The notes beneath the pieces are model-generated. The model was not told where the DNA came from. It saw only the letters and a list, made by a program, of their open reading frames with translations, and made no database searches. A stretch of 43,395 bases of DNA, from IMG/VR virus record IMGVR_UViG_3300032309_003163, positions 1 to 43,395 of that record; one strand, given 5' to 3'. Of the stretch, positions 2,931-28,386 are shown piece after piece (position 1 is the first letter of the stretch; every line of letters begins with the position of its first letter). Made by a program: the position numbers and the translations under genes. This stretch comes from a virus.

Positions 2931-2959
2931 AAAAAGAAGGGTTATTTACCCTTCTTTTT
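2931..2959. terminator. Bidirectional terminator between gene 2166 and clpP
   Basis: A 12-bp stem AAAAAGAAGGGT / ACCCTTCTTTTT with a 5-base loop, A-rich on one side and T-rich on the other, ends both convergent units. It overlaps the last codons of clpP. Confidence 0.8.
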
Positions 2960-3622
2960 TGTTTTAACAATCTCGTCAATAATTCCGTATTCTAAAGCTT
3001 GTTCACTATCTAACCACAAGTCCCTGCTGGCATCAATTTTAACTTGTTCAGGGTCTTTATCACAATACTCTCCAAGTAAACCGAAAAGAATATCATTCAG
3101 TTTTGTCCACTCTCTCATAGTGATTTCCGCGTCTTGAATGTTACCAACAGCACCTCCTGAAGATTGGTGTAACATAGTTCTTGAAAACCTCAAAGAACTT
3201 CTTTTACCCTTGGTTCCCGCCCCGAGTAAAATAGACCCCATAGATGCCGCCATACCTGTATTGACCGTTCTAATATCACAGGAGATGTAGTTCATCACAT
3301 CAACCATAGAAAGTCCTGATTTTACACTACCGCCAGGGCTATCGATGTGCATTGTGATATCCGCTTTGTCACTGTTGTCCATAAACATCAACTGAGCTTG
3401 TACAATCGTGGACATTCTATCATCTACAGGTCCTGCAACCCATATGATTCTATCCCTCATCAATCTTGAAAAGATATCAATCTGAGTAGCTCTCATCTCT
3501 CTTTCTTCAAGGATATAAGGAGTCATTGACGATTGAATTTGATTTGAAAAATTGTATAGGTCTAAAGAACCTTTACCTAAATGTTTTGTGTAGTAATTTT
3601 GGAATTCTTGTCCGATGTTCAT
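2942..3622 (-). CDS. clpP: ClpP-type serine protease subunit
   Basis: The 226-residue product is a Clp protease proteolytic subunit (peptidase family S14). The triad is intact: Ser128 in GMAASMG, His152 in MLHQSSGG and Asp201 in SRDLWLD. The oxyanion segment DSPGGSVKSG (about 94-103) and the handle region are present. An N-terminal extension of about 35 residues precedes the usual start of mature ClpP. ClpP forms a 14-subunit chamber that degrades proteins fed by a AAA+ unfoldase; a candidate partner lies at 25826-27841. It is not the prohead protease, because a gp21-type protease is present separately at 40199. It has its own Bacteroidota-type promoter (3640-3670), indicating expression by the host polymerase. 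Confidence 0.93.
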   Translation of the reverse strand: MNIGQEFQNYYTKHLGKGSLDLYNFSNQIQSSMTPYILEEREMRATQIDIFSRLMRDRIIWVAGPVDDRMSTIVQAQLMFMDNSDKADITMHIDSPGGSVKSGLSMVDVMNYISCDIRTVNTGMAASMGSILLGAGTKGKRSSLRFSRTMLHQSSGGAVGNIQDAEITMREWTKLNDILFGLLGEYCDKDPEQVKIDASRDLWLDSEQALEYGIIDEIVKTKKKGK

Positions 3623-3670: not shown

Positions 3671-4296
3671 ATATCGTCAGCAATTTCTTTTGCAGACAAT
3701 TCTTTCCAGTTTCTTGGGTGTTGGTATGACCAAAAAACTTTCCAGTTTCCAAACCATAAATTTCCGTGTTTTCTTGTTTCACCAACACTTTTGAAATCGG
3801 TACTAGTTTTTGGAAAACGACCAATATTATAGGTTTTATAAGGTGTGGAAACATTATCGGTTTTATAAAGATTGTTTATTTCGTCGAATTTAGAATTCAC
3901 TTTAACAATACATCCGTGTTTCTGTTGATATTCATTAATATTATTAACCCAAATTTTGGCATCTTCAATATAGTCGGTGACTAAATTGAATTCGACCAGT
4001 TCACCACAGTCGTTGTACCTATGATTGTAAATTTTTTGTAACCCAACATTTTTTACAAATTTGAAAACGGATATTTCGTAATCTCCGTAAAATTCACCAA
4101 AGAAATAAAAATTATTATCTTTTAGAAAGTTATCATTCCTGTTAAAATGAAACGCCTCAACAAATTTTGATTCGGGATTATTTTTTACATATTCTCTAAC
4201 CTCAACATAATAGAAACGGTCAGGACCCAAAACATCGACATAAATGCTTGGGTTAAAGTTTATCTCTATTTGTTCATTATTTACGGTAGTAAGCAT
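3655..4296 (-). CDS. Unknown protein downstream of the carbamoyltransferases
   Basis: The 213-residue product has no recognisable domain. It is rich in aromatic residues and Asn, with a C-terminal stretch containing WFGNWKVFWSYQHPRNW. Its start overlaps the end of the upstream carbamoyltransferase gene by 20 bases, so the two are translationally linked and probably act in the same process. The -33 element of the clpP promoter lies inside its last codons. No signal peptide or membrane segment is seen. Confidence 0.75.
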   Translation of the reverse strand: MLTTVNNEQIEINFNPSIYVDVLGPDRFYYVEVREYVKNNPESKFVEAFHFNRNDNFLKDNNFYFFGEFYGDYEISVFKFVKNVGLQKIYNHRYNDCGELVEFNLVTDYIEDAKIWVNNINEYQQKHGCIVKVNSKFDEINNLYKTDNVSTPYKTYNIGRFPKTSTDFKSVGETRKHGNLWFGNWKVFWSYQHPRNWKELSAKEIADDILGLS

Positions 4297-5869
4297 AATC
4301 TCCTATTATTAATTTATCGATAATACCTTTTTGTAATGTGTTGAAAGCTTGGCTTGGGGAATCAATAATTGGCTCGTTGTGAGAATTGAATGATGTGTTA
4401 AGTAACACAGGTATACCTGATATCTTGTGATAGGCATTTAGTATTTCCCAAAACTTTTTGTTTTTTTCTTTTACAACTATCTGAGGTCTTGCACTTTTGT
4501 CTGATTTTTGAATTACTGCAGGAATCTTATTTATCCATGATTCTCTTGTTGAGTAACAAACAGTCATGAATTCTGCGGAATATTTTGATTTCGAGGGATA
4601 AAATATTTCATCAAAATGTTCTTCCATTACAATCGGTGCAAACGGCATGATTTCGTATCTTTTTAACCTTTCATTCAAAACCTTATGAGTACTTATTTTG
4701 GTTGGTTTTACTAAAATACTTCTCGCACCTAATGCCCTCGGACCGTGTTCAAATCTGTCTTGAAACCACCCAATAATTCCTCCTTCTTCTATTTCTTTTG
4801 CAATTTTATCAGGTGAATAAATTTCTTTGTGAAAATTATAATTCCTTGACATTATTTCGATTATTTCATTTGTATAACCAATACCAAAAAAAACGTTTTG
4901 TAGTTTCTTTGGTTTTATTATTTCACCTAACTCTACTGCTTTTCTTATACAAGCCCCTAATGGTAAACCTTCATCACCCATCGGAGGATAAATAAAAATT
5001 TCATCAACAAAATCTAACTCGTTAATTTTTTGGTTAAGTTTAACATTGGCAAAAAGTCCACCTGAAAATGCGAATTTCCTATATTCGGGATATTGTTTGT
5101 TTAAATCAGTCAGAAACTGAACAAACATTTCATTAGTATAGTGTTGTAAGTTATATGAAAAAACTTCTCGTTGTTCTTTGGTGTCAAACGCTCCTTGAAA
5201 ACGCATGGAATCCATGAAAAATTTAGTTCTTTCTGCAGTTGTGGATGGAGAAAATTTTAAATCTTTATATTGTATCAGGGTTTTCAACATGTTTATAATG
5301 TTTTCGTCGTAGTATCCGTCGGCTGCCATACCCATCAATTTACCTTCGTCTTTACAGATTTTCCAAAATGATGCTCCATTTTTATCTACACCAAGCATAC
5401 CTGTAGTAGAGAAACCCCAAAGATGTGAGATACTACCAAACGTACAATAATCCATACTTTTTAATAATGTCATTTTACCGTCTTCGCATAGGTAAATTTT
5501 CATCATTGATTCATCTCCGCCACCATCATATGAAATTGTCATAACTTTACCATCCATACCACTTGTGAAATACGCACCATAACAGTGAGATTCGTGATGA
5601 CTTACCCTCTCATATTTACCGTTTGTAAGTTCATCGGCGTATAAATCAGGTACAGGTTCAACCATCATTCTATGGTCTGCATCTTTGATTTGTAAACCAG
5701 ACAACTCAACAATTTTCGAAGACGATAAATTAGGAAATGATTCGTAATTGTCTCCAGCCTTTATTCTTGTTAACCGTTCTTCCTCAAGTACAAATTTTAT
5801 TTCACCATCTACAATTAAAGCGGATGTTGCACTATGAGAGCCAGCAAAGAAAGAATAAATTGAACTCAT
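4277..5869 (-). CDS. NodU/CmcH-type carbamoyltransferase (second of pair)
   Basis: The 530-residue product belongs to the NodU/CmcH O-carbamoyltransferase family, which moves a carbamoyl group from carbamoyl phosphate, via carbamoyl-adenylate, to a hydroxyl. Visible landmarks are the N-terminal motif HHESHCYGAY (91-100), the ASKHA-like segment ISYDGGGDES, and in the C-terminal YrdC-like part GPRALGARSILV, MPFAPIV and VLLNTSFNSHNEPI. Length fits the family. The upstream gene is a second, different carbamoyltransferase whose stop lies one base away. In phages, family members have been linked to carbamoylation of hydroxymethylcytosine, but sugars are also known substrates. The acceptor here cannot be read from sequence. 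Confidence 0.88.
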   Translation of the reverse strand: MSSIYSFFAGSHSATSALIVDGEIKFVLEEERLTRIKAGDNYESFPNLSSSKIVELSGLQIKDADHRMMVEPVPDLYADELTNGKYERVSHHESHCYGAYFTSGMDGKVMTISYDGGGDESMMKIYLCEDGKMTLLKSMDYCTFGSISHLWGFSTTGMLGVDKNGASFWKICKDEGKLMGMAADGYYDENIINMLKTLIQYKDLKFSPSTTAERTKFFMDSMRFQGAFDTKEQREVFSYNLQHYTNEMFVQFLTDLNKQYPEYRKFAFSGGLFANVKLNQKINELDFVDEIFIYPPMGDEGLPLGACIRKAVELGEIIKPKKLQNVFFGIGYTNEIIEIMSRNYNFHKEIYSPDKIAKEIEEGGIIGWFQDRFEHGPRALGARSILVKPTKISTHKVLNERLKRYEIMPFAPIVMEEHFDEIFYPSKSKYSAEFMTVCYSTRESWINKIPAVIQKSDKSARPQIVVKEKNKKFWEILNAYHKISGIPVLLNTSFNSHNEPIIDSPSQAFNTLQKGIIDKLIIGDYAYYRK

Positions 5870-5870
5870 A

Positions 5871-7538
5871 TTAATTTCTTGATATGATGAAATTATTGAT
5901 AACTAAAAAATCTAAATTGTTTTCTAAAAATGTGTTAATTGCCTCCTTTGGAGTTTCAACAATCGGTTCTTTAGGTCCATTAAAACTAGTATTCAACAAA
6001 ACAGGAACGTTTGTTTTTTCATAGAATTTTTTAATCAAGGAATAAAATTTTTGATTATTATTTTCTGTGACGGACTGGTGTCTTGCTGAATTATCAACAT
6101 GAACAACTGCGGGTATTTTATTTCTCCACTCTTCTCTAACAGTCGTAGTAACCAACATATATGGAGAGTAAACGTCAGATTCAAAAATTTCTGACTGATG
6201 TTCGAACATAACTGCGGGTGCAAATGGTCTGTACCACTCTCTTTTCTTTATGTCTGAGTTTATATGACCTGTCATCCATGATTTAATTGGAGATGCTAAA
6301 ATTGAACGATTACCTAATGCTCTTGGCCCTATTTCTGAACCACCTTGAAACCATCCGATAACTCTATTTTCGGATAACCAATATGCCATTTCATTCAATA
6401 ATTCGTTGAAATCTTGGTACTCTGTAAAGTTTAATCCAACGTAGTCGTTTAAGGCCTCAATAACTTCTTTTCTATCGTATGTTTTACCCAAATATGGACT
6501 TAATTGTTCTACTTCTTCAATATCGGTTAATTTTTGATATGCAAACCAAGCACAACCCAATGGAATTCCACTGTCGTCACTTGGTGGGATAAAGTATGAA
6601 TTTTCGTACAATCCTGAGTTCAAAATAAGTTCGTTAGAATTGCAGTTTAAAAAAGAACCACCAGCAACACAAACATTTTTAGAATCTGTACGTTTCTTTG
6701 CCATTTTGGCCAAAATCAAAGAGGCTCTTTCTTGTTCTCTTTGATAAATTCCTGCAACACAAGCTTTTGAGAAAAAGTCACTTCTCCAAGTAACCCTTGG
6801 ATAAATTGTGTTGTTTGATATGAATATATCATCTTCAAGTTCTTCAACAAAATTCGGAGCTTCATCAACGATATTTTTATCAGCATATGATGCTAATCCC
6901 ATTAATTTACCTGCCGGCCAAGTATTACTATTTGGTTCAAAAATTAATTGTAGGGAACCTTGAGAATAAACCGTACCCAAAGAAGTACTTTCTCCTGTAT
7001 TCAAAGGTACAGGGTATTTTATCCATTTTTTGTAAACCTCTTTGTATTCATTCTTTTTAAAATGATAAATTGATATTCCTTCTGTCCAATCCTCATCCGA
7101 ATTTAATTCACTTCGGTCAAGGTCGTACCACAGATGTAGTTTGTTTTTATAGTTCAATATACTTCCTGACGCATCTGCAACAATGACCGCAGCATCATCA
7201 AAACCAGAACTAAAAAAAGTTGAATATGCGTGAGCTAAATGATGTGGAATAAAATACAACTTATCATAACTAACGTCTGTGTATTTCTTAAAAAAGTTCG
7301 AAGGTGTTTTATCTTCAAGCTCGGTTGTACTGTAGACAAAATAATCTATTTCCTTATAGGTAATTCCTATTGCGTTGAGACAATAATTTATCGATTCAAA
7401 AGGAATTATTCCTCCTTGATGTGCTCCGTCATGTTTGATTCTTGATAATCTTTCTTGGGTTATACCAATAACGACTTTACCATCCTCAATAATAACTGCA
7501 CCTTTATCGTGCCCTACTGAAAAACCTAATACCCTCAT
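5871..7538 (-). CDS. NodU/CmcH-type carbamoyltransferase (first of pair)
   Basis: The 555-residue product carries the family landmarks: GFSVGHDKGAVIIEDGKVV at the N-terminus, HHLAHAYS at 99-106, VADASGS, and in the C-terminal YrdC-like domain GPRALGNRSILASP, WYRPFAPAV and VLLNTSFNGPKEPI. It is distinct in sequence from its neighbour, so the pair is not a recent duplication. The two may use different acceptors or form a heteromeric enzyme. The gene starts 10 bases after a small acidic protein gene on the same strand. No host-type promoter is seen directly before it, so it is probably read with the HNH operon from 8680. Confidence 0.9.
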   Translation of the reverse strand: MRVLGFSVGHDKGAVIIEDGKVVIGITQERLSRIKHDGAHQGGIIPFESINYCLNAIGITYKEIDYFVYSTTELEDKTPSNFFKKYTDVSYDKLYFIPHHLAHAYSTFFSSGFDDAAVIVADASGSILNYKNKLHLWYDLDRSELNSDEDWTEGISIYHFKKNEYKEVYKKWIKYPVPLNTGESTSLGTVYSQGSLQLIFEPNSNTWPAGKLMGLASYADKNIVDEAPNFVEELEDDIFISNNTIYPRVTWRSDFFSKACVAGIYQREQERASLILAKMAKKRTDSKNVCVAGGSFLNCNSNELILNSGLYENSYFIPPSDDSGIPLGCAWFAYQKLTDIEEVEQLSPYLGKTYDRKEVIEALNDYVGLNFTEYQDFNELLNEMAYWLSENRVIGWFQGGSEIGPRALGNRSILASPIKSWMTGHINSDIKKREWYRPFAPAVMFEHQSEIFESDVYSPYMLVTTTVREEWRNKIPAVVHVDNSARHQSVTENNNQKFYSLIKKFYEKTNVPVLLNTSFNGPKEPIVETPKEAINTFLENNLDFLVINNFIISRN

Positions 7539-22740: not shown

Positions 22741-22771
22741 AAAAAAACAGGAGAATATTCCCCTGTTTTTT
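22741..22771. terminator. Bidirectional terminator between lpxH-like gene and tmRNA
   Basis: A 9-bp stem AAAAACAGG / CCTGTTTTT with a 10-base loop is flanked by A- and T-runs and directly abuts the 3' end of the tmRNA. Confidence 0.88.
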
Positions 22772-23188
22772 TGGTGGAGATGGCGGGAGTCGAACCCGCG
22801 TCTTGCTCATCTTGACAATAAATGACTACACGTTTATTTGATTGGTTCTCAATCAACAAATAGAGTATTCCCTTATTTTATAGTGGTTCGGTTTATACAC
22901 AACTAATCCTCCACTTGTTTCTTTTTAGGTAGAAACCACACCTTTGTGAATACTTCTGTTCCTAGGTTATATGTACACCGACCCGAGGTCATCCCGACTC
23001 TGTCGAGACAACGGTTGTACTCTACTAATTAAGCAGCTACAACAGACGCTTCTCTAGTTAAACCTAAAGCAGCCATCTTAGCAAAAGTTTTGCCAGTTAC
23101 TTGTTTTCACCATAGATTTAAGTCATAGATGAATTCTGACTACGTGCCACTTATCCCCAACAACGCCAATCGATACCATTACATCCCC
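22772..23188 (-). ncRNA. ssrA: Transfer-messenger RNA (tmRNA) with encoded CCA
   Basis: The 417-base gene has a tRNA-like end: 5' GGGGATG pairs with CATCTCC before A and CCA, with the G3-T70 wobble that marks alanine charging. The T-arm ACGCGGGTTCGACTCCCGC is canonical. The reading frame after GTAACT begins at GGC (23093) and encodes a 21-residue tag, starting GKTFAKMAAL and ending REASVVAA, then TAA. It rescues stalled ribosomes and tags the product for proteases such as Clp. The tag is longer than the common tag of about 10 residues but keeps the terminal AA degron. A host-type promoter (23209-23240) and a terminator flank it. Confidence 0.95.
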
Positions 23189-23208: not shown

Positions 23209-23240
23209 CAAAGGTAAGTATAAATATCCGATAATCCAAG
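23209..23240 (-). promoter_or_regulatory. Promoter of the tmRNA
   Basis: On the minus strand TTG (23237-23239), 20 bases, TACCTTTG (23209-23216), 20 bases before the mature 5' end. A TATTTATA octamer (23219-23226) lies inside the spacer, so both transcription classes could drive it. Confidence 0.6.
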
Positions 23241-23261: not shown

Positions 23262-24308
23262 ATGGCGGCATTAGACACATTTATTGCACTTAGGAATTAC
23301 GTCAAAGGAAAAATTGATGGTAATGAACTTTTGGATGCTGATAGTTTGTTCTCAACTATGAGAGAAGATTATAAAACGCCAGGTCAAAGTGTAATTACAG
23401 TAGATTTTAAAAACGAAGAAGAGTTTTTGACAACCATGGGATTGGGTGATGATGATAATTGGTTTTATCGTGTATTGAATTCGCCTTATAGTGATTATGA
23501 ATTCTTCGACTACTATTCGGCTGTGGAAGATTTTGAGAATGGGTGGGGTTTGTATTTCGAGTTGGATGACGAAAACAAAGAAAAATTATCAGAAATATCC
23601 AGAGCTATATTACCAATGAAGGTTAACTTTGATAATGAAAAGTTTAGAAGTCAACTATCAGAAAAACTTTTAAAGAATTTTAAAAAAGAGACCCAAGATA
23701 TTATTGAAGATTTTGCAACTGAAAGAAATTACGAAGGTAGAAGAAGTGCTAGAAAACATGTGAATGAAGAGTGGGATAACTATCTGAGTCAGCTTGGATT
23801 TTCATCATATGGTGATGGATTTAAAACTACCGTAGCAAACCTTATAATGTTGTATTTGAAAGAAAATAAAATACATCTTACATTAGAAGAATTATTGAGT
23901 AATATTGTTGAATCCACTTTGACTCCTGGCGGGTGGAATGAGGACGTTTATGAATATATGAACGGTGAGGAATTTGATAGAAGTAGTTTTAATAGTTATG
24001 TTTCAGGAAAATTGGATGATATTCTTGAAAAGATTGAGGATGGAGCCGATAGTTCAGGTGTAAGTTTGTCTGATTTTACTGCGATGACCGATAGAATCAC
24101 CAAGAAATTTAAACAAGACAAATATTATGTACTACCTAAAGACGCAAAAAAAGAAACTAGATTCAAAATAGAAGGGTTTGAATTTCCTAACCTGAAAGTA
24201 GTTGTAAATTTACAAAAGGGTTTGAAACAAAAAAAGGTTAAGTTATCTGAAGATAATTTCTACAATTTATTATATCAACCAACATTATTTAATTTGGATG
24301 AAATATAA
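23262..24308 (+). CDS. Unknown acidic protein
   Basis: The 348-residue product is not recognised. It is acidic in its first two thirds and helical, with a basic C-terminal part (KGLKQKKVKLSEDNF). An octamer 4 bases before its ATG suggests late expression. The promoter for the M20 peptidase lies in its last codons. It is divergent from the tmRNA. Confidence 0.7.
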   Translation: MAALDTFIALRNYVKGKIDGNELLDADSLFSTMREDYKTPGQSVITVDFKNEEEFLTTMGLGDDDNWFYRVLNSPYSDYEFFDYYSAVEDFENGWGLYFELDDENKEKLSEISRAILPMKVNFDNEKFRSQLSEKLLKNFKKETQDIIEDFATERNYEGRRSARKHVNEEWDNYLSQLGFSSYGDGFKTTVANLIMLYLKENKIHLTLEELLSNIVESTLTPGGWNEDVYEYMNGEEFDRSSFNSYVSGKLDDILEKIEDGADSSGVSLSDFTAMTDRITKKFKQDKYYVLPKDAKKETRFKIEGFEFPNLKVVVNLQKGLKQKKVKLSEDNFYNLLYQPTLFNLDEI

Positions 24309-24328: not shown

Positions 24329-25174
24329 ATGACACAAGATATATCCTTATTAAAAGAAGTTTTAAGCGTACCCACAAAAACCTATCAAGAACAAAGAATG
24401 GTAGAGTTTTTGGTTGATTGGTTAACTGAAAACAAAATAGACCATTATGTTGATGACAAAATGAATGTCTATGCTACAAAACAAGAAACATCAGAATTAC
24501 CTGAAGATTTCTATTTCCCATGTGTAATATCACACACAGACACTGTTCACAATATTGATACAATCAATATTAAAGAAATGATGTTACCAAATGCTCAAGG
24601 TCAAATGAAACCATCATTGAAAGCTTACAACGACTCAAATTTTCCAACAGGAATTGGTGGAGACGATAAGTGTGGTGTGTTTGCGTGTTTAACATTACTC
24701 AAAGAATTACCGAACCTTAAAGCGGCTTTTTTCGTATCCGAAGAAACTGGTTGTCATGGCTCAAGAGCTGCTGACCCCAAATTCTTTACAAACGTAGGGT
24801 ATGGGATTCAATTCGATGCTCCCGAAAACTGGATGATTACAGAAAAATGTTTTGGTCAAATCTTATTTGATAGGGATTCTGAATTTTTCACAAAAGTTGA
24901 TGAGGTTCTAACTGAAGGAATGATTAATGAAGACATGGAATACATGGTTCACCCATATACTGATGTATACGCACTTAGGAGTAAGTTTGATTTCTCATGT
25001 GTGAACTTCTCAATTGGATATTACGACTACCACACAAAGAATGAATACGTGGTAATTGAAGACGTGTTTAATGGAATTGAGATGGGTAGAAAAATGATTC
25101 AATCTTTGGGCTATAAGTTACACTTCAAAAAAGCTGAGCAATTCAAGTATAAAAACAGTCAGTTGTTATTTTGA
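24329..25174 (+). CDS. M20-family zinc peptidase
   Basis: The 281-residue product has the di-zinc ligand set of the M20/M42-type exopeptidases: SHTDTVH (His69, catalytic Asp71), GGDDKCG (Asp112), FVSEETG (catalytic Glu138, Glu139), FDAP (Asp163) and DYHTKNEYV (His235). It is close in pattern to PepT-like tripeptidases but shorter than the usual 400 or so residues, because the lid/dimerisation domain is reduced. Such enzymes remove residues from short peptides, which fits a step after Clp proteolysis; that link is inference. It ends directly against the convergent zinc protease gene. Confidence 0.88.
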   Translation: MTQDISLLKEVLSVPTKTYQEQRMVEFLVDWLTENKIDHYVDDKMNVYATKQETSELPEDFYFPCVISHTDTVHNIDTINIKEMMLPNAQGQMKPSLKAYNDSNFPTGIGGDDKCGVFACLTLLKELPNLKAAFFVSEETGCHGSRAADPKFFTNVGYGIQFDAPENWMITEKCFGQILFDRDSEFFTKVDEVLTEGMINEDMEYMVHPYTDVYALRSKFDFSCVNFSIGYYDYHTKNEYVVIEDVFNGIEMGRKMIQSLGYKLHFKKAEQFKYKNSQLLF

Positions 25175-25783
25175 TTAGATAAATTTTTCTAATCTATCTA
25201 TATGCATTTTTACCATCGGGTGGTCTTGAATATCTTCATATTCTCCACCCGATTTTTTTATATACATAATTGTATTAATAATTGACCTCAAAGACATTTC
25301 AACAGATTTTGACATTAACGGATATTGTTGTATGTAATATGATAAACTGAATTGACTTTTAGCAAACCAAATAGGAATGTCTAATTTTATTACTAGTTTT
25401 GCAATCATATTTTTAGCAAACTGGTCTGCATCCAATTCCATTTCCCAGTATTGATTATATAAATTTTCAAAATCATCTAAGTCGTAATCGGTTAGTGGAT
25501 TTAACATTTTTATATCTCTAACCTGTTGCTCATGTCTAATTTCGTGAAATATCGTATAAAGAAAATCACCTATCGTTCTCATGTTCATAGGGGAACATAT
25601 GATTACTTGGTCTTTAGTTCTAACTCCACTAAAACCAGTTCCACATGAATTCAGGAACCTGATAGTGATGTTGTTTTTCTTAATATAACTCACAACAAAT
25701 TTTTCAATAATATCAACCTTTGACTTTAATTCGTCAGGGAACTGTTCTTTGAATTGGTTTAATAATCTCGAAAAATTACTCAT
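25175..25783 (-). CDS. Zincin metalloprotease (ImmA/IrrE-like)
   Basis: The 202-residue product has a zinc site HEIRH (His80, Glu81, His84) followed by EMELDAD with Glu116, Ala119 and Asp120, the HExxH plus ExxAD arrangement seen in ImmA/IrrE-type and gluzincin proteases. ImmA/IrrE proteins often cut a repressor; no repressor gene adjoins it here. A TATTTATA octamer 3 bases before the start suggests late expression, so a virion or late role is also possible. Confidence 0.8.
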   Translation of the reverse strand: MSNFSRLLNQFKEQFPDELKSKVDIIEKFVVSYIKKNNITIRFLNSCGTGFSGVRTKDQVIICSPMNMRTIGDFLYTIFHEIRHEQQVRDIKMLNPLTDYDLDDFENLYNQYWEMELDADQFAKNMIAKLVIKLDIPIWFAKSQFSLSYYIQQYPLMSKSVEMSLRSIINTIMYIKKSGGEYEDIQDHPMVKMHIDRLEKFI

Positions 25784-25825: not shown

Positions 25826-27841
25826 TTATCGTCCTTTTTTAACGACTTTTACAGTTTCGTCCTCAACCTTAATCACGTAGGATTTACCCTCCACAATTTT
25901 ATCGGTAAGAACCTCTTCAGATAAAAGGTCTTCGACCTTGTCTTGAATTGCTCTCTTCATAGGTCTTGCTCCATATAATTCGTCGTATCCGATTTTTGCG
26001 ATGTAGTCAACTAAGCTTTCATCGTAAGTAATCTTATACTTCATTTCAGTTAGACGGTTCATCAACTTCTTGAGTTCAATATCAGTAATCTTTTTGATGT
26101 CATCTTTAGATAAAGAATTGAACACAATTGTATCATCGATACGGTTGATAAATTCAGGAGAAAAGAAGTTTTTCATTTCTTTCATCAAGATGTCCTTCTT
26201 AGCTTCTTCGTTACTGTAAGAGTTTGTACCGAATCCGATTCCTGTACCGAAGTCCTGTAGTTTCTTCACTCCAAGGTTTGAAGTCAAGATAATCAAGGTA
26301 TTCTTGAAGTTAATCTTACGACCTAAACTATCTGTAACGTGACCGTCATCTAAGATTTGAAGTAATACTGTGAACACATCTTTGTGAGCTTTTTCCACCT
26401 CGTCAAATAAGATAACTGAGTAAGGTTTGTTTTTAACTTTTTCAGTCAACAATCCACCTTCTTCGTATCCAACATAACCTGGAGGGGCTCCAACCAATTT
26501 AGAAACTGTGTGTTTTTCTTGATATTCAGACATATCCACACGGATTAATGCGTCTTCAGTTCCAAACATTTCCTTAGCCAATTGTTTTGCCAAGTGAGTT
26601 TTACCAACACCTGTTGAACCAAGGAATACAAATGAACCAATCGGACGGTTCGGGTCTTTGATACCCAATCTATTTCTTTTGATAGATTTAGCAACTTTGA
26701 TAACAGCAGCGTCTTGACCGATAACGGTACCAACAATGTGTTTATCCAAGTTAATCAAAGCTTTGGTGTCATCAACAGACATTTTGTTTACAGGAATTTT
26801 GGTCATGTTTGAAACTACATCGTAAACATCGTTCAATGCAACAACTTGCTTGTCTTTTGACATATCGTCTTCGAATTTACGTTTTTCTTGTTCCAATTTA
26901 TCCAACAATTTTTTCTCCTTATCTCTAAGTTGTGCCGCTTGTTCGTAGTTCTGTTTTTTAACAACATCAATCTTTTGTTGTTTTATTTCAGATGCCTTAC
27001 GTTTCAATTCTTCGATTGCTTCAGGGACCTTCAACTCGGTTTGCATACGAGCTCCAACCTCATCCAAGATATCAAAAGCTTTATCAGGGAACTCACGGTC
27101 CGTAATATAACGGTCAGCCAACTTAACACAAGTTTCAATCACCTCGTCAGAATATGATACCTTATGGTAAGATTCATATTTGTCACGAACGTTTTTCAAA
27201 ATTTGAATTGTTTCAGCAACTGATGAAGGTTCAACAATAACCTTTTGGAATCTACGTTCAAGAGCCCCGTCCTTTTCAATATTCTTACGGAATTCATCTA
27301 ATGTAGTCGCACCGATTACTTGGATTTCTCCACGAGAAAGTGCTGGTTTAAAAATGTTTGAACCGTCCATAGAACCCGATGAATTACCCGAACCAACAAG
27401 AGTATGGATTTCATCAATGAATACGATGATGTTAGGGTTTGCCTGAAGTTCTTCAATAATTACCTTCATTCTTTCTTCAAATTGTCCACGGTATTTTGTA
27501 CCAGCAACAACTGAAGTTAGGTCAAGGTTTACCAATCTTTTATCAACAAGATTACGAGGACATTCACCACTCACAATTTTGATTGCAAGTCCTTCTACCA
27601 AAGCGGTCTTACCACAACCAGGTTCACCAATAATAATAGGGTTATTCTTTTTTCTTCGAGATAGAATTTGTGCAATTCTCAAAATCTCTCTATCACGTCC
27701 AATCACAGGGTCCAATTTACCTTCCTCAGCAAGTTTATTCAAATCTCGACTAAAGTTATCCAACACAGGTGTTGAACTGTCGCTGTTCGCCTTTTGTTTT
27801 TTACTCATCATTTTGTCGTCGTCGTCCATTAAATCATTCAT
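25826..27841 (-). CDS. clpC: ClpC/ClpA-type AAA+ unfoldase lacking the N-domain
   Basis: The 671-residue product has two AAA+ rings. D1: Walker A GEPGCGKT (72-79), Walker B VFIDE (140-144), arginine-finger segment ALERRF (193-198), pore loop KYRG. A UVR-like segment [12 protein letters not shown] is at 298-309. D2: Walker A GSTGVGKT (408-415), Walker B VILFDE (476-481), pore loop GYVGY (455-459), and IGF at 535-537 in the position of the ClpP-docking loop. The double Clp_N domain is absent, so substrate choice must use other parts or an adaptor. It unfolds proteins and should feed ClpP. It is divergent from a UVR-motif gene across a shared control region with two palindromes. Confidence 0.93.
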
Positions 27842-28011: not shown

Positions 28012-28386
28012 ATGTTCGGAAACAGAAGAAATTACGATGACATCTTTAGAGCATTCGAGGAAATGTTCTCTCAATTTGACTCAATGGACGGTGAGTGGAA
28101 AACTCAAACTAAACTTTCAGATGATGGGACTTATAGAATAACCAGTTATTATTATGGTAATAATAAGGACGAAAAAGTAACAACTAAAACTCTACAGAGA
28201 CAACTTGATGAGGCAATCGAAAATGAAGATTTCGAAATGGCGGTAAAACTCAGAGACCAACTGAAAAAAATCGAGGCAAATAAAAAGGAAATTGAAGAAC
28301 TTGAATTAGAATTGAAAAAATCAATCAAGGAACAAAACTTCGAAAAATCTATTGAGATTAGAGACCTATTGAAAAAATTGAAGTAA
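28012..28386 (+). CDS. Two-UVR-motif protein, possible ClpC adaptor
   Basis: The 124-residue product has two UVR motifs (about 61-88, LDEAIENEDFEMAVKLRDQL; and 97-124, IKEQNFEKSIEIRDLLKKL) forming paired helical hairpins. UVR motifs occur in UvrB/UvrC, in ClpC middle regions and in McsA, an activator of ClpC in Firmicutes. The McsA zinc fingers are absent; instead there is an acidic, aromatic N-terminus (NYDDIFRAFEEMF). Placement opposite clpC with a shared control region supports a role with ClpC. A role with UvrBC-type repair is an alternative. The 5' untranslated region is about 80 bases and contains an operator palindrome. Confidence 0.8.
   Translation: MFGNRRNYDDIFRAFEEMFSQFDSMDGEWKTQTKLSDDGTYRITSYYYGNNKDEKVTTKTLQRQLDEAIENEDFEMAVKLRDQLKKIEANKKEIEELELELKKSIKEQNFEKSIEIRDLLKKLK

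Follow-up and report, generated by a model that had tools for sequence, protein, structure and literature searches.

A conserved long tmRNA tag, linked to a ClpC-type unfoldase in a wide group of phages, may belong to a phage-owned trans-translation module

When a phage encodes its own tmRNA, is the tag that this RNA appends read by the host or by the phage? The question is raised by a stretch of viral DNA of 43,395 bases (hereafter the window), which is the entire IMG/VR record IMGVR_UViG_3300032309_003163 and probably a fragment of a phage genome. Complete tmRNA genes have been reported in the mycobacteriophage Bxz1 group, Bacillus phage G, Streptomyces phages, the methylophage Melnitz and the huge phages of Al-Shayeb et al., and, as in the phages described here, SmpB is usually absent. 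A published survey counted 402 phages with such genes, 2.3% of its sample (PMC9004378), which makes the rarity assumed in the original prediction roughly right; huge phages with both tmRNA and SmpB have been reported (PMC7162821), and the published suggestions on why phages carry tmRNA are general (PMC9004378, PMC7162821). By ARAGORN and cmscan the window holds 18 tRNAs and one tmRNA. The 18 tRNA genes lie between 8919 and 14634, cover most amino acids and have several short ORFs in between. A tandem pair of NodU/carbamoyltransferase-like genes, an unusual cargo for a phage, occupies 4277-7538; one scored 114.8 bits with NF041651, far under the cut-off, and the second was judged from its translation.

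The tmRNA gene and the elements within and around it are the following.

22772-23188, minus strand: one-piece tmRNA gene, 417 nt (RF00023, 92.7 bits, and acceptor pairing in the sequence)
23182-23188, minus strand: 5′ strand of the acceptor, GGGGAUG, with G3 opposite U70 (sequence and cmscan alignment)
22772-22782, minus strand: 3′ strand of the acceptor, CAUCUCC, with the encoded ACCA end (cmscan and sequence)
22783-22799, minus strand: canonical T-arm, GCGGG-UUCGACU-CCCGC (T-arm scan)
23029-23094, minus strand: tag frame of 21 codons, GKTFAKMAALGLTREASVVAA, followed by UAA (ARAGORN; frame conserved in relatives)
23048-23073, minus strand: extra hairpin in the tag frame, codons 8-16, AALGLTREA (folding)
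23014-23043, minus strand: helix-5-like hairpin whose loop contains the tag stop codon (folding)
22741-22766, minus strand: terminator-like hairpin and T run directly 3′ of the tmRNA (read from the sequence)
23209-23239, minus strand: Bacteroidota-type promoter, TTGG, 19 nt, TACCTTTG, some 20 nt before the tmRNA gene (sequence)

The whole RF00023 model (1-374) matched the window at 92.7 bits (E 5.7e-35), the gathering score being 47, and ARAGORN also called a tmRNA, with the tag GKTFAKMAALGLTREASVVAA and its stop and the same 3′ end, placing the 5′ end at 23158. We rejected this 5′ end and preferred 23188 on the strength of RF00023 and of the acceptor pairing, in which GGGGATG (23188-23182) pairs with CATCTCC (22782-22776). 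The G3-U70 acceptor, the T-arm and the CCA (sequence and T-arm scan) make up an alanine-type tRNA-like domain. The full one-piece tmRNA that had been claimed, with its paired G3-T70 acceptor, canonical T-arm and encoded CCA, is therefore present in all these parts; both programs proposed as a check call it, Rfam not below threshold, and the strand, absent from the claim, is minus. Upstream of the tag, alignments of phage tmRNAs, read by inspection, showed the first pseudoknot (PK1), whose stem AGUCA/UGACU covaries to AGUGA/UCACU, AGUCG/CGACU and GGAG/CUCC and whose loop UUCAUC is complementary to GGUGAA, and the PK2-PK4 region downstream of the tag aligned poorly to RF00023, with large insertions. 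With bacterial one-piece tmRNA the phage gene shares the G3-U70/CCA tRNA-like domain, an A at position -4, the first pseudoknot and an internal frame ended by UAA; unlike the Bacteroidota tmRNA (tag GENNYALAA) it has a 21-aa tag, an extra hairpin in the tag frame and a divergent scaffold. Bacteroidota are probably the hosts of this group of large, uncultivated phages, judging from the TAnnTTTG promoter element, which precedes nearly every related phage tmRNA with upstream sequence in the record, and from the unfoldase described below, whose best bacterial matches, among those listed, belong nearly all to Bacteroidota, with identities up to 61%.

The length of the tag follows from its start. 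The resume codon GGC (23094-23092) is preceded by UAACU, which places an A at -4, and this base, a known resume determinant (A86 in E. coli), is A in 73 of 73 phage and 30 of 30 host tmRNAs, so that the resume codon, and with it the tag length, is fixed. The other two frames, read from the sequence, stop within about 10 codons. The 21-codon tag ending in TAA, as originally predicted, was thus borne out by ARAGORN, by the conserved frame and by the A at -4, and a shorter tag or a wrong frame was rejected because frame, stop and -4 base agree. Within the frame, the inner hairpin had 80% of its cells paired over 66 sequences, with many pair types changed among them, versus 34-56% when its 3′ side was slid by 1-3 bases, a comparison in which the hairpin, being defined on the window sequence, is somewhat favoured over the slid controls. 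The added length seems to come from this extra conserved hairpin, and the tag reads as a host-length start carrying an inserted, structured coding block.

We compared the gene with 30 Bacteroidota tmRNAs. All 30 encode tags of 9-10 aa, mostly GENNYALAA-like, and score 121-170 bits with RF00023, against 93 for the phage tmRNA; host tags end in LAA or MAA, and in phage tags G, T, V or E frequently occupies the penultimate position. The tag thus differs from host tags in both length and sequence, which answers the check proposed at the outset: the gene is not a host copy. A captured host tmRNA was rejected on these 30 tags and on a search of bacterial and archaeal genomes, in which a degenerate pattern of the near-clade tag, matched by 41 viral contigs, gave no match among 84,980 genomes; a first, exact pattern had been too strict and gave no matches.

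Among phages, the tag recurs. A terminase search yielded 80 close phage loci, some on contigs of 326 and 317 kb, and a full tmRNA above the RF00023 cut-off was present in 11 of 28 related records, with the tag frame kept in the alignment of these 11. Ten of them carry tags like that of the window, for example GNTFAKMATLGLTREAVVVGA and GNTLAKMSALGLTREASVVTA, the remaining one GNVLNKMALVGLVKQDELVSVA. Since loci collected by a tag pattern give codon statistics biased by that pattern, we relied on a wide scan independent of the tag, using the tmRNA 3′-end pattern TAAACKTGTAG...CTCCACCA in viral contigs. This returned at least 104 new viral loci, and about 76 of the 104 listed encode one tag family of 20-22 aa (for example GETFAKLSAIGLIREESVVAA, GNVLSKMETLGLVRESEVTVA, GNVYNNMEVAGLLATSNVAVA and GNTIAKLSTLGLIRTEEVTVA), with a consensus of roughly G-N-[TV]-[FLI]-x-K-[ML]-x-x-L-G-L-x-R-E-x-x-V-x-x-A.

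Codon statistics on 61 distinct 21-codon tags indicate that the 21-codon frame is under coding selection across this wide phage group. Mean entropy at codon positions 1, 2 and 3 was 0.88, 0.63 and 1.22 (permutation p ~0.0003), and pN/pS was 0.62 in the tag frame versus 0.82 and 1.05 for the two alternative frames, ratios to be taken as indicative, the pairs being related and the sites saturated. L12 is invariant bar one Ile, with 5 codons used in all, position 7 is only Met or Leu, and position 10 is nearly always hydrophobic; the residue classes 1-4, G11 and the last residue, which the collecting regular expression had pre-set, were left out as evidence. Terminal Ala-Ala, which the original prediction held to be kept in the tag as the signal read by Clp unfoldases, is not the conserved element: tags of the family end in AA, GA, TA, VA, EA and rarely in I or S, the final Ala being kept in 58 of 61. 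The non-Ala ends are two distinct tags in -TI (VVTI) and one in -TVS (loci L297, L301, L379, L309), natural variants that would be useful on the role of the C-terminus. A regular expression found no tag-like sequence elsewhere in the collected phage DNA, and tblastn gave no tag match in reference phages, a 21-aa query being weak for diverged copies.

Published tags span 8-35 aa (PMC8012679), the commonest length being 10 aa (PMC11915505), so that length alone has precedent; a conserved phage family appears to have none. Streptomyces phage tags are annotated as 11-13 aa, versus 21 here, Bxz1 and Wildcat lying outside this tag comparison. Phage tmRNAs may often have long tags. Tags of 20-34 aa unrelated to this family, for example AEDLMSIPTFLNRSVPAVASEAELAMAA, GNAHTHILTSNSTFAVSEAVVGNEVLVA and GEDNIAGLLDEAAAIMNNADAVLAGAEVAEVVA, are encoded by other phage tmRNAs (loci L315, L328, L335, L348, L363, L366, L368, L377, L382, L302). 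In the 484 kb huge phage LR756508.1, a tmRNA at 92434-92880 (L266) has a 36-aa tag, GVNNADYESAGFTAEDFAQMDGESLYHGSERKPAAV, in the only open frame past the resume site (UAACU before GGC), where ARAGORN gives GRRKPLSW, and a second tmRNA-like gene at 414804-414915 (L269, 58 bits) consists of the tRNA-like domain only. A tmRNA-like gene reduced to the tRNA-like domain, similar in form, has reportedly been found in phage DS6A. Standard annotation overlooks tmRNA genes of the window's kind, as ARAGORN detects just 1 of the 11 near-relative tmRNAs.

Some phage tmRNAs have a changed T-arm. In six phage tmRNAs (L121, L123, L132, L149, L150, L342), which Rfam does not detect and whose acceptor and tag are intact, the T-loop UUCxA is replaced by GGCxG (GGCGGUA, GGCAGAG or GGCGGAA) and G18 of the D-loop is now A; judging from these sequences, U54-A58 and G18-U55, two contacts of the elbow, appear to have been exchanged together for G-G and A-G, and G19-C56 is retained. 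Canonical T-loops in the T-arm scan nearly all occur with a D-loop GG, and the two flagged otherwise contain GG too. In three further phage tmRNAs (L115, L117, L134) a Group I intron (RF00028, ~72 bits) sits in the T-loop and causes RF00023 to miss them; T-loop introns are known from bacterial tmRNA (PMC11915505).

To return to the window, a phage Clp unfoldase and a ClpP had been proposed as partners of the tag, and Pfam found both, the unfoldase being of ClpC type and without an N-domain. Together with the neighbouring genes they are the following.

25826-27841, minus strand: ClpC/ClpA-type double AAA+ unfoldase, 671 aa (Pfam, loop scan, linked orthologues)
2942-3622, minus strand: ClpP protease subunit, 226 aa (PF00574, 186.6 bits; orthologues in relatives)
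23262-24308: hypothetical protein (counterpart beside the tmRNA in a distant phage, L304)
24329-25174, plus strand: PepT/M20-M42-like metallopeptidase (phrog_4191 peptidase, 114.7 bits; weak TIGR01883 and Pfam)
25175-25783, minus strand: protein with a HEIRH zinc-protease-like motif (read from the translation)
28012-28386, plus strand: 124-aa protein with two UVR motifs, a McsA-like feature (PF02151, 52.8 bits, two stretches)

Like ClpC and ClpA, the unfoldase has two AAA+ modules (D1 and D2), a D2-small domain, a short UVR-type middle region and an IGF/VGF-type ClpP-docking loop (here IGF), a loop kept in 32 of 32 phage unfoldases. It differs from them in the N-domain, for which (Clp_N) Pfam gave no match, and in its length of 671 aa versus ~840 in hosts: phage unfoldase ORFs begin close to the first AAA domain, and host ClpC exceeds them by ~160 aa. 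The protein scores under the NCBIfam cut-offs for ClpA and ClpB. Since the N-domain is absent, we call it ClpC-type and not ClpC. The unfoldase tree, in which the phage copies are monophyletic (100/100) and host ClpC stands apart, groups the phage tags by family.

In each of the 24 contigs measured, two of which (G110, G114) have a different or ambiguous tag, the unfoldase and the tmRNA share a strand with the unfoldase upstream, and in 21 it is within 7 kb, where random gene placement would give ~0.8, a contrast to be read with the gene order being partly common descent and the 24 contigs therefore not independent. The unfoldase was found in all tested tmRNA-bearing related records but two, which are short (64 and 48 kb), and in 22 of 24 long tag-bearing contigs of the wider family. 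In the two long exceptions (131 and 181 kb) it was not found; the closest tag relatives have theirs 22-25 kb upstream, which in these two would lie past the contig ends.

The ClpP translation has the motifs GMAASMGS, TMLHQ and DASRDLWL, and with them the Ser-His-Asp triad. Besides the window, 17 of 28 related virus records have ClpP orthologues, including every one of at least 85 kb, and no phage ClpP was found in contigs of 304, 191, 150 and 133 kb that carry tag and unfoldase. A fully private protease cannot be general, since several related phages thus have tag and unfoldase and no detectable ClpP. Phage ClpP goes with VV-x-A tag ends and its absence with VTVA or AVA; this follows the clades of the tree, and co-evolution is not claimed. 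SmpB, which the original prediction had proposed to look for, did not turn up in nine records of related phages, those of 326 and 317 kb among them, the window's own phage being known from its 43,395 bases alone, and was missing from 36 of 38 further phage records; as it is mostly absent from the phages, their tmRNA probably uses that of the host.

In the distant phage L304 (G087:62327-62743), an SmpB of 157 bits, over the NCBIfam cut-off, lies at 3965-4462, about half a kilobase from a long-tag tmRNA. The metallopeptidase, which in the window sits between tmRNA and unfoldase, has a similar protein in the same place in L304, and the resemblance of this peptidase and of the hypothetical protein to those of the window, judged by eye, suggests that the neighbourhood is old. 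The HEIRH protein belongs to no Pfam or NCBIfam family, and of the 12 near-clade loci, the window among them, 10 have a UVR ORF next to the unfoldase.

We moderately favour the reading that these genes form a phage-owned trans-translation module in which a private tag feeds a phage ClpC-type/ClpP protease, a routing that we infer. The position of the unfoldase relative to the tmRNA, its intact docking loop and its tree lend indirect support to this proposal, which the original prediction had made. Ribosomes stalled on broken mRNAs would be plentiful in infection, and host alanyl-tRNA synthetase, SmpB and EF-Tu would charge the phage tmRNA and deliver it to them. Translation would restart at GGC, appending Ala and 21 residues, of which the conserved middle (about FAKMxxLGLxRE) may serve as the address for the phage unfoldase, directly or via the UVR protein encoded beside it; threading would begin from the hydrophobic-Ala end. 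The unfoldase would then hand substrates to ClpP, phage-encoded in the window's clade and host-encoded elsewhere, the neighbouring peptidase may complete peptide breakdown, and the outcome would be ribosome rescue and amino-acid recycling under the control of the phage, not of host ClpXP. Against this model, the hydrophobic-Ala end could be recognised by host ClpX, and ClpP was not found in the four long contigs named above. More tentatively, and at a little less than even confidence, the pathway could be orthogonal, the conserved 20-22 aa address being read only by the N-domain-less phage unfoldase in widespread large phages. It is equally tentative that the phage would in this way set which proteins from broken mRNAs die and when, without host ClpXP or its adaptors.

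The small residues at the end of the tag, which resemble those of host tags, are also what one would see if the tmRNA worked and host ClpXP destroyed the tagged proteins, the extra part serving adaptor avoidance or RNA structure and the unfoldase acting, for example, in disaggregation. The relatives without detectable phage ClpP and the conserved RNA hairpin in the extra part fit such a scheme, which we nonetheless consider unlikely: RNA structure alone cannot explain the codon-phased conservation of residues 3-16, the penultimate G, T, V or E is common and unlike host LAA/MAA, and a pure disaggregase would have no need of the ClpP-docking loop, which the phage unfoldase keeps in 32/32. Less probable still is a non-degradative tag that stabilises, localises or inhibits its product or baits a host factor while the tmRNA frees ribosomes. 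Its length of twice the usual, its strongly conserved, binding-motif-like middle and the -TI and -TVS ends would suit this. Against it stand the final Ala of 58 of the 61 tags and the genomic linkage, which points to proteolysis: the tag goes with a Clp-type unfoldase and, in part, with ClpP and a peptidase. That the gene is an ordinary captured host tmRNA or an artefact, with a shorter true tag and an accidental 21-codon frame, is hardly credible, since, for all that ARAGORN misplaces the 5′ end here and misses most near relatives, host tags differ, the near-clade pattern is absent from the 84,980 genomes, divergent scaffolds share the frame, its stop and the A at -4, and in the window the other two frames stop early.

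The phage-owned module that we favour has its nearest functional precedent in a bacterium. The Mesoplasma florum ssrA tag, of ~27 aa, has a partner protease that reads it in the organism itself. This is its own Lon, foreign proteases reading the tag poorly (PMC8138137); it differs from the phage case in being bacterial, in using Lon and not a Clp-type unfoldase, and in an unrelated tag sequence. The open-access literature yielded no conserved long phage tag family or linked unfoldase, and no paper on a phage tmRNA paired with ClpP. Phage tmRNAs and long tags are each known; the combination of a conserved phage tag family with a linked unfoldase appears to be new.

A tag conserved across dozens of divergent phage tmRNAs, together with a fixed genomic partner, yields a testable prediction, namely that tag and unfoldase function as a pair separately from the host system. 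If this is true, these phages would run a protein-degradation pathway of their own, the pair would be a natural orthogonal degron and unfoldase for engineering, and its study would give insight into how phages recycle ribosomes and amino acids.
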